Assembly: GCA_019310125.1 (NCBI GenBank)
Contig: JAFDEW010000012.1
Span: 1 to 34,357 of the forward strand
Direction of reading: 5' to 3'
Length of the DNA stretch: 34,357 nucleotides
Origin: Deltaproteobacteria bacterium
Lineage (GTDB): Bacteria; Desulfobacterota; Desulfobacteria; Desulfobacterales; UBA11574
In this document: in pieces, positions 370 to 34,267 of the stretch
How the letters are laid out: every line of letters begins with the position of its first letter
Numbering within the stretch: the first letter of the stretch is position 1
Program-made: the position numbers and the translations under genes
The notes under the pieces: generated by a model
What the model saw: the letters and a program-made list of their open reading frames with translations, nothing else
The model's database searches: none
Told to the model about the DNA's origin: nothing

Positions 370-444
370 CTTAAAATCACCTCAATTTTATAGCATACTT
401 TTATGAGACTTCAAAATAAGTTTAAAATCATTAGGTGTCAAGGA

Positions 445-2349
445 TCATTCGATTTTTTGATTTCCGGTTTGGGATGGATATTTCTCAGCAGATTTGAGGG
501 AAATCATAATTACAGAAAGCGCAGCCGGGGTGATTCCATCTATGCGGGAAGCCTGGCCAAGTGAAGAAGGCCTTGTGGCAGAAAGTTTTTCTTTGAGTTC
601 GTTTGAAAGTCCGTGCACCGTTTTAAAATCAAAATCTTCCGGTATTTTCATCCGTTCCAGGTTCTTGAATTTTTCGATTTCCTTGAGCTGCCGCTTGATA
701 TATCCTTCGTATTTGATTTCTATTTCCACCTGCCGGGTAACAGATTCACTAAGGTTGTAAGGACTTTCGGACAGTTCTTGTGCGGCACGGTAATCAAGCT
801 CGGCCCTTTTTAGAAGCTGATCCAGATAGATGCCGCTTTTTAAAGGTCTTGTCCCATGACTGAGCAAATAATCGTTTATCTTTTTATCAGGCTTTATCAC
901 GGTTTTTTTTATTCTTTTAATCTCTCTGGCAATCTGCTTTTTTCGTTCATTTACATCTTTTAATGTGTCATGATCGATTAAGCCCAATTCATGACCGGTT
1001 TCCATTAATCTCAAATCCGCATTATCCTCCCGAAGCATCAGCCTGTATTCGGCCCGTGACGTAAACATGCGATACGGTTCGCGGGTGCCCCTTATAACAA
1101 GATCATCTATCATAACAGCCATGTACGCTTGTGACCTGTCGAGAATGAACGGCGGTCTTCCCTGGATCTTGCAAGCAGCATTGATTCCTGACCATATGCC
1201 CTGGGCAGCGGCTTCTTCATACCCCGATGTCCCGTTAATCTGACCGGCCATGTAAAGTCCTGAAACCCGCTTTGTTTCAAGGGTGGGCTTAAGCTGGACA
1301 GGATTGATGTAGTCGTATTCTATGGCATACGCAGGCCGCATGATCTCGGCAGCTTCCAACCCTTTGACGGATCTTACAAACTGAATCTGAATTTCCATGG
1401 GAAGGCTGTTCCCCAGGCCGCTGGCATAAACCTCATCCGTATCAAGGCCTTCGGGCTCAAGGATTACCTGGTGCCTTTCCTTATCAGGAAATCTGACGAT
1501 CTTATCTTCAAACGAGGGGCAGTAGCGGGCCGAAACTCCTGTTATCATGCCGCCATACAGGGCTGAGCGTTTAAGGTTTTTTTGCACAATCTGGTGGCTT
1601 TTCTGGTTGGTATGCCCGATATAGCTTGGAAGCTGGGGATTGTTAATCTTTTCGGTAAAGAATGAAAAAGGTTTTGGCTCTTCTTCCGACCCATGCTCTG
1701 TGAATTCGCTAAAATCGATACTTGCTTTGTTCAATCTGGGCGGCGTGCCTGTCTTCATTCTTCCAAGCTCAAATCCCAGCTCTCTCAGGTGCGCCGGGAG
1801 ACCATAGGATGCAAATTCGCCGGCCCTTCCGGACTGGAATGAATTGAACCCGATGTGGACCAGACCGCTTAAAAAGGTTCCTGTAGCCAACACAACGGCA
1901 TGGGCCCGATATCCAAAACCGGTTTGATCTTCCACACCGGCGATCCTGTTGTTTTCAACGACAAGTCGCTCAACCATGGCCTGTTTGAGGTCCAGGTTGG
2001 GCTGTTTTTCAATGACGGCCTTCATGGCCATATGATAACGGATCTTATCGTTTTGCGTGCGAGAGGATTGGACGGCAGGCCCTTTTTTTGTATTCAGTGT
2101 TCGATATTGAATGGCGGTTTTATCCGTGATCTTTGCCATTTCACCGCCTAAGGCATCTATCTCTTTTACAAGCTGTCCCTTTGCCATACCCCCGATAGAC
2201 GGGCTACAGGGCATTGCTGCCACCTTGTCCAGATCTATGGCCATAAGAAGGACGCGGCATCCCATTCTTGCGGCTGCAAGTGCAGCCTCACATCCGGCAT
2301 GACCGGCGCCGACAACAATAATGTCGTATTTTTTTCGGTAGAAAACCAT
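445..2349 (-). CDS. mnmG: tRNA uridine-5-carboxymethylaminomethyl(34) synthesis enzyme MnmG (GidA)
   Basis: FAD-dependent enzyme that, with the GTPase MnmE, installs the carboxymethylaminomethyl group on U34 of tRNAs reading NNA/NNG codons. The N-terminus carries the dinucleotide-binding motif [12 protein letters not shown], followed by the MnmG signatures [15 protein letters not shown] and KTGTPPRL. Later hallmarks are [16 protein letters not shown] and [17 protein letters not shown]. About 634 residues is the normal family length, so it looks intact. An ATG at 2349 gives MVFYRKKYD; an in-frame TTG two codons upstream (2355) has a slightly better spaced GGAAA, so the start is uncertain by two codons. 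It is divergent from the radical SAM gene across a 147-bp AT-rich spacer. Confidence 0.97.
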
Positions 2350-8138: not shown

Positions 8139-8594
8139 ATGCCGCCATTAGATGATATGGACAGGGCAATCCTTAATCTGATTCAATCCGATTTTCCCAT
8201 AACCCCCCGCCCTTATCTTGCAATTGCCCAACGTCTCGGTTTTTCAGAAAATGATGTTATAAAACGACTGGATCGGCTAAAAAAAAAGGGCATTATACGC
8301 CGAATAGGCGGGAATTTTGTTCCTGAAAAGCTAGGATATATCAGTACGTTATGCGCGGCAAGGGTTCCGGAAGACAAAATCCAAAGCTTTGCCAAAGCGG
8401 TAAACCGCTATCCGGGAGTCACTCATAATTATCAGCGGGATAATAAATATAACGTCTGGTTTACCTTTATTGCTCCTTCCATGAAGGAAATAGAGGAAAA
8501 CCTTGAAAATATCTCCCGACAAACAGGGATTAAGAAAATTATCAACCTGCCGGCCACAAAGGTATTTAAGATAAGGGCGCATTTTAACCTTTGA
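8139..8594 (+). CDS. Siroheme decarboxylase subunit (AhbA/AhbB, Lrp-like)
   Basis: A 151-residue Lrp/AsnC-like protein with an N-terminal winged helix (LDDMDRAILNLIQ, then AIAQRLGFSENDVIKRLDRLKKKGIIRRIGG) and a C-terminal RAM-like domain. This is the architecture of AhbA/AhbB, which decarboxylate siroheme to didecarboxysiroheme in the alternative haem pathway of sulfate reducers. VTHNYQRDNKYNVWFTF, with the His/Arg pair, is typical of the family. The partner subunit and the radical SAM enzymes AhbC/AhbD are not in this window. The start has AGGAG within the end of yjbQ. A plain transcription regulator is the less likely alternative. The stop codon touches a palindromic repeat. Confidence 0.78.
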   Translation: MPPLDDMDRAILNLIQSDFPITPRPYLAIAQRLGFSENDVIKRLDRLKKKGIIRRIGGNFVPEKLGYISTLCAARVPEDKIQSFAKAVNRYPGVTHNYQRDNKYNVWFTFIAPSMKEIEENLENISRQTGIKKIINLPATKVFKIRAHFNL

Positions 8595-10101: not shown

Positions 10102-10362
10102 TTATCCGCACAGGCGAAGTTCACGCCCGGTAAGCGCCAACATGCCGTTTGGTGTAAACTCTCCGATCATACAGGTAATTTGTTTCATACCTCTGATCAT
10201 TAAGGAACACCAGGCATCGAGCACGTCAAAATGACCGGTTTGAGTTGTAATTATCTCGACAAGATCTGCCTGAATTTTTTGTTTTATTGTTTTTCCTTCG
10301 GAATCTGCATCCCAATTCGACGGTTCTTTGCCCACAACATAAATAATTAGTCCTGATTTCAT
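10102..10362 (-). CDS. 86-aa protein under cobalamin-riboswitch control, unrecognised
   Basis: A small soluble protein beginning MKSGLIIYVVGKEPSNWDAD and ending LTGRELRLCG, with cysteines at 52, 64 and 85 and a GHFDVLDAW stretch around residues 43-51. No signal peptide or membrane segment is seen. The start at 10362 is fixed by a strong GGAGGTG; longer in-frame starts fall inside the upstream terminator hairpin. It is the only gene between a cobalamin riboswitch with attenuator and the next plus-strand gene, so B12 level should directly control it, probably repressing when B12 is abundant. I do not recognise the family; B12 scavenging or handling, or replacing a B12-dependent step, are possibilities from context only. 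Confidence 0.85.
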   Translation of the reverse strand: MKSGLIIYVVGKEPSNWDADSEGKTIKQKIQADLVEIITTQTGHFDVLDAWCSLMIRGMKQITCMIGEFTPNGMLALTGRELRLCG

Positions 10363-10421
10363 ATTTTCACCTCCTTTCATAATATTTTTAGCCCCGCCCA
10401 GGATGCGTAAGCACGCCAAAA

Positions 10422-10459
10422 TAAAAAAGCCCTTCAATCTTTAAAAAGATTGAAGGGCT
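10422..10459 (-). terminator. Attenuator terminator between riboswitch and the 86-aa gene
   Basis: A perfect 15-bp stem (10445-10459 pairing with 10428-10442) is followed on the minus strand by six T residues. It lies downstream of the riboswitch aptamer and 60 nt before the start codon, the classical place for a riboswitch-controlled terminator. An AAGGG just upstream (10478-10482) could compete for the CCCTT of the stem as an antiterminator. Confidence 0.92.
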
Positions 10460-10529
10460 GCACCCAGCTTACTTGACCCCTTTTTTATGTAACCATAACG
10501 CTCTGTAACACCGCAGAGCCACAGTTATC

Positions 10530-10692
10530 TCTAAGGCAGGTCTTCTGACTCCCGGTTCATCCTAATCTCTGCGCCTTCCCATACGGTTAAAACCAGACAG
10601 TGGCATATTGCAGATTTCGTCGCCGGTCACAGCGGCGGGACCGCTTCCGATTCTCACGGAATTCCCTATTAAGCCATGGTTATTGGCACCTT
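10530..10692 (-). ncRNA. Cobalamin riboswitch
   Basis: Read on the minus strand, the conserved blocks of the cobalamin aptamer appear in order: GGTGCC at the 5' side (10690-10685), AATAGGGAA, a GGTG-like GTGAGAATC, GAAGCGGTCCCGCCGCTGTGA, GCCACTGT, GGGAAGGC, and the B12 box-like GATGAACCGGGAGTCAGAAG ending in ACCTGCC (10541-10535). It lies directly ahead of the attenuator hairpin and the 86-aa gene on the same strand, 120 bp downstream of the ald stop, with its own promoter. Ligand binding should favour termination, so expression is expected to rise when adenosylcobalamin is scarce. Confidence 0.97.
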
Positions 10693-10699
10693 TGTAATT

Positions 10700-10728
10700 C
10701 TTTTAAAAAATTTCAAAAAGCCTGTCAA
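10700..10728 (-). promoter_or_regulatory. Putative promoter of the cobalamin riboswitch transcript
   Basis: On the minus strand a perfect TTGACA (10728-10723) is followed after 17 bp by TAAAAG (10705-10700), a 4/6 match to the -10 box. Transcription would start just before the first aptamer block, so the riboswitch gene need not be read through from ald. Confidence 0.6.
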
Positions 10729-10811
10729 GAAAAATAAACAGGGTAAACTTTTTCATAGCCTTTCTTCCATTTTTCCATTTTGATGGGTTGTGGAATTTCC
10801 GAAACGTTAAA

Positions 10812-14855: not shown

Positions 14856-15109
14856 GGTTGTGCACCCTCTATCGAATTTTTTCTGAAATGTAATAAGCCA
14901 AAGGCTTGACCGGGATCGATCCACGACACAGACTGCATTACTTATCGCTGCTTCCTTCCGGACCTGACGAGGTTCGTAACCGTCTGTTGCGCGGCGGCCG
15001 ATCAGATTGGCTCATAGGTTCCCAGGTTAAAACCCTTTAGAGGGGATTCAGCCCCGCATGAAGCGGATTTCGGGAAAAGGGCACCGCTAGCTCCCCGCCT
15101 AGCACAACC
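14856..15109 (-). ncRNA. ffs: Signal recognition particle RNA, long Bacillus-type with Alu domain
   Basis: Scaffold RNA of the signal recognition particle, which binds Ffh and targets membrane and secreted proteins. The minus strand has the near-invariant GTCAGGTCCGGAAGGAAGC of helix 8 (about 14967-14949). Unlike the ~110-nt 4.5S RNA of most Gram-negatives, a 5' domain closely resembles the Bacillus subtilis scRNA Alu region: TGCTAGGCGGGGAGCTAGCG, then AATCCGCT and GAATCCCC. The 3' end has the matching GGGTGCAC. The ends pair perfectly (GGTTGTGC at 15109-15102, GCACAACC at 14863-14856). The length is about 254 nt. An open frame across 15002-15229 is a by-product. Confidence 0.93.
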
Positions 15110-31780: not shown

Positions 31781-34267
31781 TTATCCGCATTTGGTAAAAC
31801 CGCAGAAATGACACATCATACAGCCCTCTTCAAAACTGACGGTATTCCCGCATTCCGGACAGGTTTCTCCAAGGAGGCTGTTGCCGTATCCGTGCTTTTT
31901 ATAAGATCCGTCTTTCAAATACCTTTTCTCAAGGACTCTGCCAATGGCATCCGGTATTGACAAAACCAGGCCTCCTTTTTGAAAAACAGGATGCTCCCCG
32001 CCGATACCTTTTAGTTGTTCTACAACTTTTTCTACCCGAACTCCGGATCTGAAGGCCAGCGAAACCAGCCTGCCGATGGCTTCGGTCTTTGCTGTGGTGG
32101 ACCGCCCGGATTTACCGATGGTGGCAAACACCTCAAAAGGATGTCCGTCCAATTCGGTTACTGTAACATAAAGCTGGCCCATTCCCGTATTCATTTTGGA
32201 AGTGAACCCTTCAAGTATTTCCGGACGTTCTTTGACCGTGGTATTCGAGGTGTCGCCAATCTTGTCCGCTCCGGCAACCGAAAGCACCTGATTTTCCTTA
32301 CTTCCATCCCTGTATATGGTAACGCCTTTGCAACCTAGCTCGTAAGCCAGATTATAAATCTTTAATACATCGTCCACGGTGGCATCACTGGGCAGGTTGA
32401 CCGTCTTAGAAACCGCATTATCGGTGTGGTTCTGAAAAGCGGCCTGCATCCGGATATGGCATTCAGGAGATATATCATGGGCCGTTACAAAGACCTTGCG
32501 AATATCCTCCGGTATTTCGTCAATATGCTGAATACCCCCTTCAAGGGCAATGGTATCCATCAACTCAGTGCTATAAAACCCTTTTTCTCTCGCCACTTTT
32601 TCAAAATATTGATTTACTTCTAATAATTTGTCATTATCCATAACGTTTCTAACAAAACTCAAGGCAAAAAGCGGTTCCACGCCGCTGGAACAGTTCGCAA
32701 TTATACTCAATGTGCCGGTCGGTGCAATGGTGGTTGTGGAGGCATTTCGATAGGTACATCCTTTCCGGTTACTAAAAATGCTCTTATCAAAATTTTCAAA
32801 AACCCCTCTTTTTTCAGCCAGACATTTTGAGGCTTCGTGGGATTCTTTTTGAATGAAACCCATCACTTCTTCGGCCAGTTCAAAGGCCCTTTCCGAGTTA
32901 TAAGGAATTTTCAACTGATAAAGCAAATCTGCAAAACCCATAACCCCTAACCCAATTTTACGGTTACCTCTAACCATTTCGCCGATTTCAGCAAGGGGGT
33001 ATTTGGACATATCAATCGTATTGTCCAAAAAGCGGACACTCCAAAATACAACATCCTTTAAGACCTCGTAGTCGACGGCCGGTTCTCCGTCGGTATACGT
33101 AACAAATTTGGCCAGATTAATAGAGCCCAAGTTGCATGCTTCCATTGGAAGCAACGGTTGTTCTCCACAAGGATTGGTGCTCTCTATTTCTCCCAATGCA
33201 GGGGTTGGATTATCCCTGTTAAGTTTGTCTAAAAATACGACGCCGGGATCTCCGTTTTTCCAGGCCTGCTCCACCAACGCCTGGTAAGTTTCTGCGGCAT
33301 TCAACTCTCCGACCTTTTTGTTTTCACGGGGGTCTATCAGGTCGTAGTTACTCTCTTTTGCAACCGCTTTCATGAACACATTCGTGACACCCACCGAAAT
33401 ATTAAAGTTGTTCAATTCGTTATTATTTTTCTTGCTGTAAATAAAATCCATGACATCCGGATGATCTACCTTTAAAATGGCCATGTTGGCCCCTCGGCGG
33501 GTTCCTCCCTGTTTAACCTGTTCTGTTGCCGTGTTAAAGATTTTCATAAACGAAACCGGTCCGGAGGCAATTCCGCCGGTTGTTCCCACCCTGCTGTCTT
33601 TGGGTCGCAGACGTGAAAAGGAAAACCCCGTACCTCCGCCCGATTTATGGATAATGGCGGCATTTTTTAAAGAATCAAAAATCCCGTCAATACTGTCCTC
33701 AATGGGAAGAACAAAACAAGCCGCCAGTTGACCCAGCCTACGTCCCGCATTCATCAGCGTCGGTGAATTTGGCAGAAATTTAAGCTCAGTCATCATATTG
33801 TAAAAAATGTTTTCCATTTTTTCCACATCGGCATCGCTACCATAGTTTTTTTCGGCCTTTGCGATGTGCCGGGCCACCCTTTTGAACATTCTTTCGGAAG
33901 TTTCGATGACCCTTCCCTTGTTGTCCTTTTTAAGATATCTTCTTTTCAATACATTTCTTGCATTTTCTGAAAGTTTCAGACCATTTTTTATAAACATGGA
34001 CTTATCCAGACAAATGGGCGAGATATTTTTGAGTCCGTATTCCAGCAATTTGGTCTGAATAATTTTATCTATGACCGGCATGGTAATGGTATGATTTTTC
34101 ATACTGTCGATTTCTTCTCTCAGAAATCGGCTGATATCCATGGCCTGGTTGGTTTCAATGGGGTTTTCTTTAGTAAGACTGTCTGAAAACAAATGATCAT
34201 CCCACTTGTAGCTCGTTAAATCGAAAGTTCCCTGTTCCGTAACTAAAATTTTACCTTTTAAACCCAT
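31781..34267 (-). CDS. nrdJ: Adenosylcobalamin-dependent ribonucleotide reductase (class II)
   Basis: Reduces ribonucleotides to deoxyribonucleotides with adenosylcobalamin as radical source and no oxygen, fitting an anaerobe. The 828-residue protein has a partial N-terminal ATP-cone-like helical region (to about 95), then NrdJ motifs: FLPNSPTLMNAGRR, KSGGGTGFSFSRLRP, GTRRGANMAILKVDHPD, the active-site NPCGEQPLLPMEACNLGSINL block and TTTIAPTGTLSIIANCSSGVEP. The C-terminal extension carries a zinc-ribbon CPECG...CHFCG, plus the terminal cysteines used for thioredoxin reduction. The start at 34267 follows AGGAGAAGG. Only 90 bp upstream are in the window, so a riboswitch there cannot be excluded or shown. 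Confidence 0.97.
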   Translation of the reverse strand: MGLKGKILVTEQGTFDLTSYKWDDHLFSDSLTKENPIETNQAMDISRFLREEIDSMKNHTITMPVIDKIIQTKLLEYGLKNISPICLDKSMFIKNGLKLSENARNVLKRRYLKKDNKGRVIETSERMFKRVARHIAKAEKNYGSDADVEKMENIFYNMMTELKFLPNSPTLMNAGRRLGQLAACFVLPIEDSIDGIFDSLKNAAIIHKSGGGTGFSFSRLRPKDSRVGTTGGIASGPVSFMKIFNTATEQVKQGGTRRGANMAILKVDHPDVMDFIYSKKNNNELNNFNISVGVTNVFMKAVAKESNYDLIDPRENKKVGELNAAETYQALVEQAWKNGDPGVVFLDKLNRDNPTPALGEIESTNPCGEQPLLPMEACNLGSINLAKFVTYTDGEPAVDYEVLKDVVFWSVRFLDNTIDMSKYPLAEIGEMVRGNRKIGLGVMGFADLLYQLKIPYNSERAFELAEEVMGFIQKESHEASKCLAEKRGVFENFDKSIFSNRKGCTYRNASTTTIAPTGTLSIIANCSSGVEPLFALSFVRNVMDNDKLLEVNQYFEKVAREKGFYSTELMDTIALEGGIQHIDEIPEDIRKVFVTAHDISPECHIRMQAAFQNHTDNAVSKTVNLPSDATVDDVLKIYNLAYELGCKGVTIYRDGSKENQVLSVAGADKIGDTSNTTVKERPEILEGFTSKMNTGMGQLYVTVTELDGHPFEVFATIGKSGRSTTAKTEAIGRLVSLAFRSGVRVEKVVEQLKGIGGEHPVFQKGGLVLSIPDAIGRVLEKRYLKDGSYKKHGYGNSLLGETCPECGNTVSFEEGCMMCHFCGFTKCG

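Follow-up and report, generated by a model that had tools for sequence, protein, structure and literature searches.

Linkage of cobalamin riboswitches to a family of small, probably CbiX/CfbA-related proteins in Desulfobacterota

Cobalamin riboswitches almost always mark genes for the supply or use of vitamin B12. Which such function is served by an 86-amino acid (aa) protein that is encoded alone behind a complete cobalamin riboswitch in the 34,357-nucleotide stretch of Deltaproteobacteria bacterium DNA analysed here (the window)? As cobalamin riboswitches mark B12 genes, an unnamed protein family tied to them in almost every copy located indicates a gap in the known biology of B12. The best reading of the evidence is a B12-repressed, non-catalytic cytosolic protein for the acquisition or handling of corrinoids, which, taken as the whole explanation, we hold at somewhat below even probability.

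The leader RNA and transcription unit

Judged by its sequence, the minus strand of the window has a complete B12-attenuator transcription unit, the features of which are given in Table 1. The first-pass annotation had read at this site a cobalamin aptamer, an attenuator, a strong ribosome site and a separate promoter, together serving one gene, and all of these were borne out. The aptamer aligns to the Rfam cobalamin model over its full length with a high, rather than a poor, covariance score, the gathering score being 31.5. The terminator, a 14-pair stem followed by TTTTTATTTT, lies between the aptamer and the start codon, so that the predicted expression platform is present, and strong ribosome sites similar to that of the window are found in relatives. 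The promoter was absent from the list returned by a strict sigma-70 consensus scan, but TTGACA precedes the aptamer at the equivalent position in 19 of 20 related loci, where it is mostly followed, ~17 nt on, by a TTTAGAAAA-like sequence. With the ATG and the end of the stop codon placed as in Table 1, the length of 86 aa is correct. The next gene downstream, encoding a nitrilase, is convergent to the small gene, which is therefore the only gene of the unit; a convergent gene is also present in 8 of the 10 near relatives checked.

As an RNA, the leader is ordinary. It resembles known RF00174 systems with a transcription attenuator in having a full aptamer, a B12 box and a terminator before the start codon, and its novelty, relative to these, is the gene that it serves. 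Adenosylcobalamin or a related cobamide would bind the nascent leader RNA and the ligand-bound leader would form the terminator, so that the 86-aa protein would be made only under B12 shortage.

Table 1. Predicted features of the small-gene transcription unit in the window
Feature	Position	Strand	Basis or detail
Promoter	10700..10728	(-)	TTGACA 10728-10723, 17-nt spacer, weak -10 TAAAAG 10705-10700; sequence reading
Cobalamin riboswitch aptamer	10518..10708	(-)	RF00174, model positions 1-189, 115.5 bits, E 1.6e-28
B12 box within the aptamer	10550-10535	(-)	AGTCAGAAGACCTGCC
Intrinsic terminator of the expression platform	10418..10459	(-)	stem 10459-10428, T tail to 10418
Ribosome-binding site	10368..10377	(-)	AAAGGAGGTG, near-perfect
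Gene for the 86-aa CbiX-like small protein	10102..10362	(-)	ATG at 10362 to TAA

Riboswitch linkage and conservation of the small protein

Whole-genome RF00174 scans and scans of individual loci provided 101 copies of the small gene with enough upstream sequence for linkage to be counted. In 87 of these, a same-strand cobalamin aptamer ends no more than 430 nt upstream (median 162 nt), one of the 87 (in genome G003) being a truncated copy that abuts the aptamer. Eleven further copies are positioned 0.8-2.4 kb behind a cobalamin riboswitch, 8 of them with a CbiK gene between, and linkage overall is thus 98/101. Two of the three exceptions are N-terminally truncated; in the third, the B12 box is intact but no aptamer exceeds the gathering score. 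Genomes have 4.6 riboswitches on average, from which the chance of such an upstream aptamer at a random point is ~2.6e-4; the 101 copies span the phylum and, being related by descent, are not independent trials. Of the relatives whose B12 box matches exactly, 32 of 34 have a terminator between the box and the start codon, and transcription attenuation is therefore probably general in the family. The linkage that had been noted at a single locus accordingly recurs among homologues, and regulation of the family by B12 is well supported.

Tandem cobalamin riboswitches precede the small gene at G036:C68, G104:C241, G187:C1, G203:C40, G167:C15 and G690:C238, which suggests a steeper control of its expression at these sites. 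N-terminally truncated copies, at loci L020 (G003:C205), L102 (G121) and L108 (G279), have the appearance of genes in decay or of errors in assembly; the L020 copy abuts its aptamer directly, with no terminator, and those at L102 and L108 have no riboswitch.

Within the window's family, 17 of 24 genomes have the small gene, as do 66 of 389 genomes of the order and 35 of 395 drawn from the phylum Desulfobacterota, across which its distribution is patchy; the carriers are sulfate reducers and bacteria related to them. A seeded scan of GTDB contigs, which detects close relatives only, returned matches solely from Desulfobacterales or Deltaproteobacteria, and no relatives were found in plasmids and viral contigs. 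A congener of the window's genome has a 30%-identical paralogue with its own riboswitch, adjoining genes that, on reading their sequences, were named as encoding a periplasmic binding protein and an ABC ATPase.

A short ORF that is usually the first after a riboswitch might be a leader peptide or a chance ORF, a reading to which we give almost no credence as it is contradicted by selection on the protein. Values of dN/dS range from 0.06 to 0.28 across 12 near pairs, consistent with purifying selection, the reading frame is kept in 97 aligned members with lengths of 81-91 aa, the predicted fold is confident and, in near relatives, the gene forms single-gene units. The most conserved positions in the 97 members are K2, G4, I6, Y8, W51 (93/97), G58 (97/97) and L84, and the GHFDVLDAW...LTGRELRLCG pattern, previously described as conserved-looking, is indeed one of the best conserved stretches of the family. 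Of the three cysteines singled out in the same description, C64 (79/97) and C85 (68/97) are conserved and the position of C52 is usually occupied by W. Tyr8, Trp51 and Asp46/Asp49 are conserved, without a catalytic set. The 9.5-kDa protein has a GRAVY value of 0.04 and is predicted to be soluble.

Similarity to CbiX/CfbA chelatases

Pfam and NCBIfam searches gave no curated family match for the 86-aa protein and no consistent match for 36 diverse relatives, among which there are weak, scattered NCBIfam matches, for example to 3-mercaptopyruvate sulfurtransferase (8 members, best E 0.003). A PDB sequence search returned nothing significant. Neither Pfam nor NCBIfam matched the protein to BtuB, BtuC, BtuD or BtuF, in keeping with the initial view that it belongs to no known B12 transport family. 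That view had also held the protein to be unplaceable, which is correct for curated families but not beyond them, as profiles and predicted folds point to kinship with CbiX/CfbA, minus the metal ligands.

Alignment by hhalign of the 97 members with 20 CbiX proteins (PF01903) gave a probability of 80%, a pairwise E of 1.3e-5 and a score of 32.5, with residues 1-65 covered in register from residue 1 and the first strand aligned onto the first strand. The score was 30.2 against a Pfam-bounded CbiX set, for which the maximum over 60 column shuffles was 14.4 and the reversed profile gave 14.1; the highest score among 38 control profiles, drawn from neighbouring genes, was 20.4 once the small-protein family and a cluster with CbiX-CbiC fusions were set aside. 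Two separate subsets of the family keep the signal (26.1 and 31.3, with shuffles at or below 17.1), it is marginal in a small third subset and there is none in the Desulfovibrio-like subset alone. HMMER gave no match of the small protein to PF01903, the similarity being below Pfam reporting. The CbiC cluster scored 29.4, because it includes CbiX-CbiC fusions; CbiC alone scored 14.4. CbiK (PF06180) was considered as the closest relative and dropped in favour of CbiX, since there was no Pfam match and its profile score of 17.4 was reached by 4 of 60 shuffles.

AlphaFold modelled the 86-aa protein with a pLDDT of 83.5 (pTM 0.75), and a second model had a pLDDT of 85.0. Among the aligned chains, CfbA and CbiXS tied as the closest to the first model (Z 5.3, rmsd 4.0-4.4, 71-73 residues aligned) and CfbA was closest to the second (Z 5.0, rmsd 3.9, 71 aligned), although a Z of about 5 is low, overlaps unrelated folds and does not suffice by itself to establish the fold. 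Foldseek gave a TMq of 0.56 to CfbA with E above 0.1; on its own it returned no match below E 0.001, and its top rows were mostly ketosynthases aligned over a small part of the target. Domains of histidyl-tRNA synthetase and of pyruvate kinase were also tied in the structure ranking, and these ties, together with the lack of a curated family match, would fit a likeness to CbiX that is a mere common alpha/beta arrangement. The low-B12 role of the protein would then be unrelated to tetrapyrroles, for example in B12-independent metabolism, and cobalamin riboswitches do also control B12-independent isozymes such as NrdDG (PMC545781). We regard this as unlikely, as the profile similarity singles out CbiX from about 38 controls and greatly exceeds that of the shuffles, and the partners of the small gene are uptake and cobalt genes, not isozyme genes.

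The metal ligands of class II chelatases are His9, Glu42 and His75 in CfbA numbering (PMC11301274), and these are not kept in the small protein. The His9 position is occupied by V, T or A, the Glu42 position is variable, no His column in the family is conserved above 52/97 and none is conserved later in the protein. The small protein resembles CbiX, CbiXS and CfbA in its profile and B12 context, with CfbA and CbiXS nearest to its predicted fold among the chains aligned, and differs from them in its length (86 versus about 120 aa), in the missing ligands, because of which it is not filed as a chelatase, and in the near-constant riboswitch linkage of its genes. It is probably a truncated CbiX/CfbA relative without metal ligands, an assignment that profiles and models support and do not prove. 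If true, an enzyme subunit has been turned into a binding or regulatory protein.

Operon partners, host genomes and possible role

The small gene had been called an orphan, as it is in the window; elsewhere, it is found in operons with CbiK and corrinoid importer genes. The 55 same-strand, directly downstream genes include 16 encoding CbiK, 8 TonB receptors, 6 FecCD permeases, 4 periplasmic binding proteins and 3 CbiZ. The small gene is usually first after the riboswitch, the genes behind it vary and many carriers have no adjacent B12 gene. In several genomes the order is small gene, CbiK, permease, ATPase. At L083, L085, L089, L126, L113 and L159, a signal-peptide-like CbiK is encoded beside FecCD permease and ABC ATPase genes, as if it were the periplasmic part of an importer.

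CbiK, the commonest neighbour and one that often shares the riboswitch, is present in 30 of 35 carrier genomes versus 162 of 360 non-carriers (P 3.7e-6, uncorrected for descent), and three genomes have a CbiK stop codon that overlaps with the start codon of the small gene. Such an association would be consistent with a small protein that, as a subunit, assists or regulates either the insertion of cobalt by CbiK or the delivery of cobalt. However, nearly all CbiK proteins encoded near the small gene have, when judged by eye, a signal-peptide-like start, also a feature of the CbiK^P type of Desulfovibrio (PMC11124144), whereas the small protein does not, and the two are therefore predicted to be in different compartments. 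CbiK and CbiK^P also differ from the small protein in being two-domain enzymes, with a profile score not above shuffles. Furthermore, the window's own genome and most of its family keep the small gene without CbiK, CbiX or CbiC, and a role in the service of CbiK is, in our estimate, distinctly unlikely.

The window's own genome is 93% complete and has the adenosyltransferase BtuR, and searches of it for CbiC, CbiK and CbiX found none. The class II NrdJ reported previously was recovered as an NrdJ-type reductase at 31784-34267 of the window. In the family, CbiC is present in 5 of 24 genomes, 4 of which also carry the small gene, and most genomes lack corrin-synthesis markers, although single gene absences are weak evidence in these draft MAGs. 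Retention of the small gene without CbiC, CbiK and CbiX argues that its role is not tied to cobalt insertion alone, and the case for a cobalt-insertion helper as the sole role is weakened. In Candidatus Desulfatibia vada (L026), a member of the family that makes corrins, CbiK starts 36 nt after the small gene, which suggests that other members lost CbiK and kept the small gene. Loss of cobalamin synthesis has been reported in the Seep-SRB1a partners of ANME-2a, and Seep-SRB1a forms one family with Eth-SRB1 (PMC10553843). A congener of the window's genome is the MAG Eth-SRB2.

In the preferred reading, of a protein for corrinoid acquisition or handling, the product would be a cytosolic beta-alpha-beta-alpha-beta-beta protein, kin to one subunit of a CbiX/CfbA class II chelatase, that would not insert cobalt because it is truncated and lacks the metal-binding His and Glu. 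The first-pass annotation had suggested that it may bind, recycle or sense corrinoids. In our reading, it would most likely bind a corrinoid or corrinoid precursor as an acceptor or chaperone, take part in B12 acquisition within the cytosol, downstream of BtuB/BtuCDF and CbiK-type components, and serve B12 makers and B12 scavengers alike. We infer this biochemical role, with its ligand and chaperone function, and likewise repression by B12 in this organism. Survival of the small gene where B12 synthesis seems to have been lost could help explain how these bacteria live on the imported vitamin. On a broader and more doubtful view, the family would be a new class of cytosolic corrinoid carriers that arose from a chelatase subunit by loss of the metal site. 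Across Desulfobacterota, these carriers would be induced when B12 is short, and they would have been retained by bacteria that gave up B12 synthesis and depend on corrinoid import, in a family that stands close to the bacterial partners of archaea oxidising methane and ethane.

Alternatively, the dead chelatase-like domain may be a sensor or adaptor, with a corrinoid, sirohydrochlorin or cobalt as its ligand, that alters the activity of another protein under B12 shortage, for example to steer sirohydrochlorin among the siroheme, heme and corrin branches. The position of the small gene, first in line with varying genes behind it, is as expected for a general effector, its conserved residues form no catalytic set and, in the window's family, a gene for a siroheme decarboxylase-like protein is close by. 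Neither a DNA-binding nor a signalling domain is present in the protein, however, and steering towards corrins would be senseless in genomes without corrin synthesis, so that we consider this alternative rather improbable.

In the delta-proteobacterial B12 regulon study (Rodionov 2004, PMC545781), B12 elements are described before cbiK-cbiL, btuCDF and nrdDG and the predicted cbtX encodes a transmembrane protein; no small protein of the present kind is mentioned in the passages covered here. Nor was one described in the open-access literature searched, which did not extend to supplementary regulon tables, so that the protein may already have been listed there as hypothetical.

Two other cobalamin riboswitches are present in the window's own genome. 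One, at 1478-1663 of L002 (G000:C1), precedes a DUF6125 gene at 1955-2533 (PF19620, E 4.4e-22), a second riboswitch-linked protein of an uncharacterised family in this genome. The other, at 1501-1709 (-) of L003 (G000:C457), precedes a zinc-type alcohol dehydrogenase gene at 409-1470 (-), after which there is, by eye, a TrpD-like ORF. Within the window, positions 8139-8594 (+) encode the siroheme decarboxylase-like protein, with a NirdL-like HTH and an AsnC domain, and this gene stays near the small gene, on the opposite strand, in most near relatives. The window also encodes a large bacterial SRP RNA (RF01854, 149.3 bits) at 14858-15107 (-).
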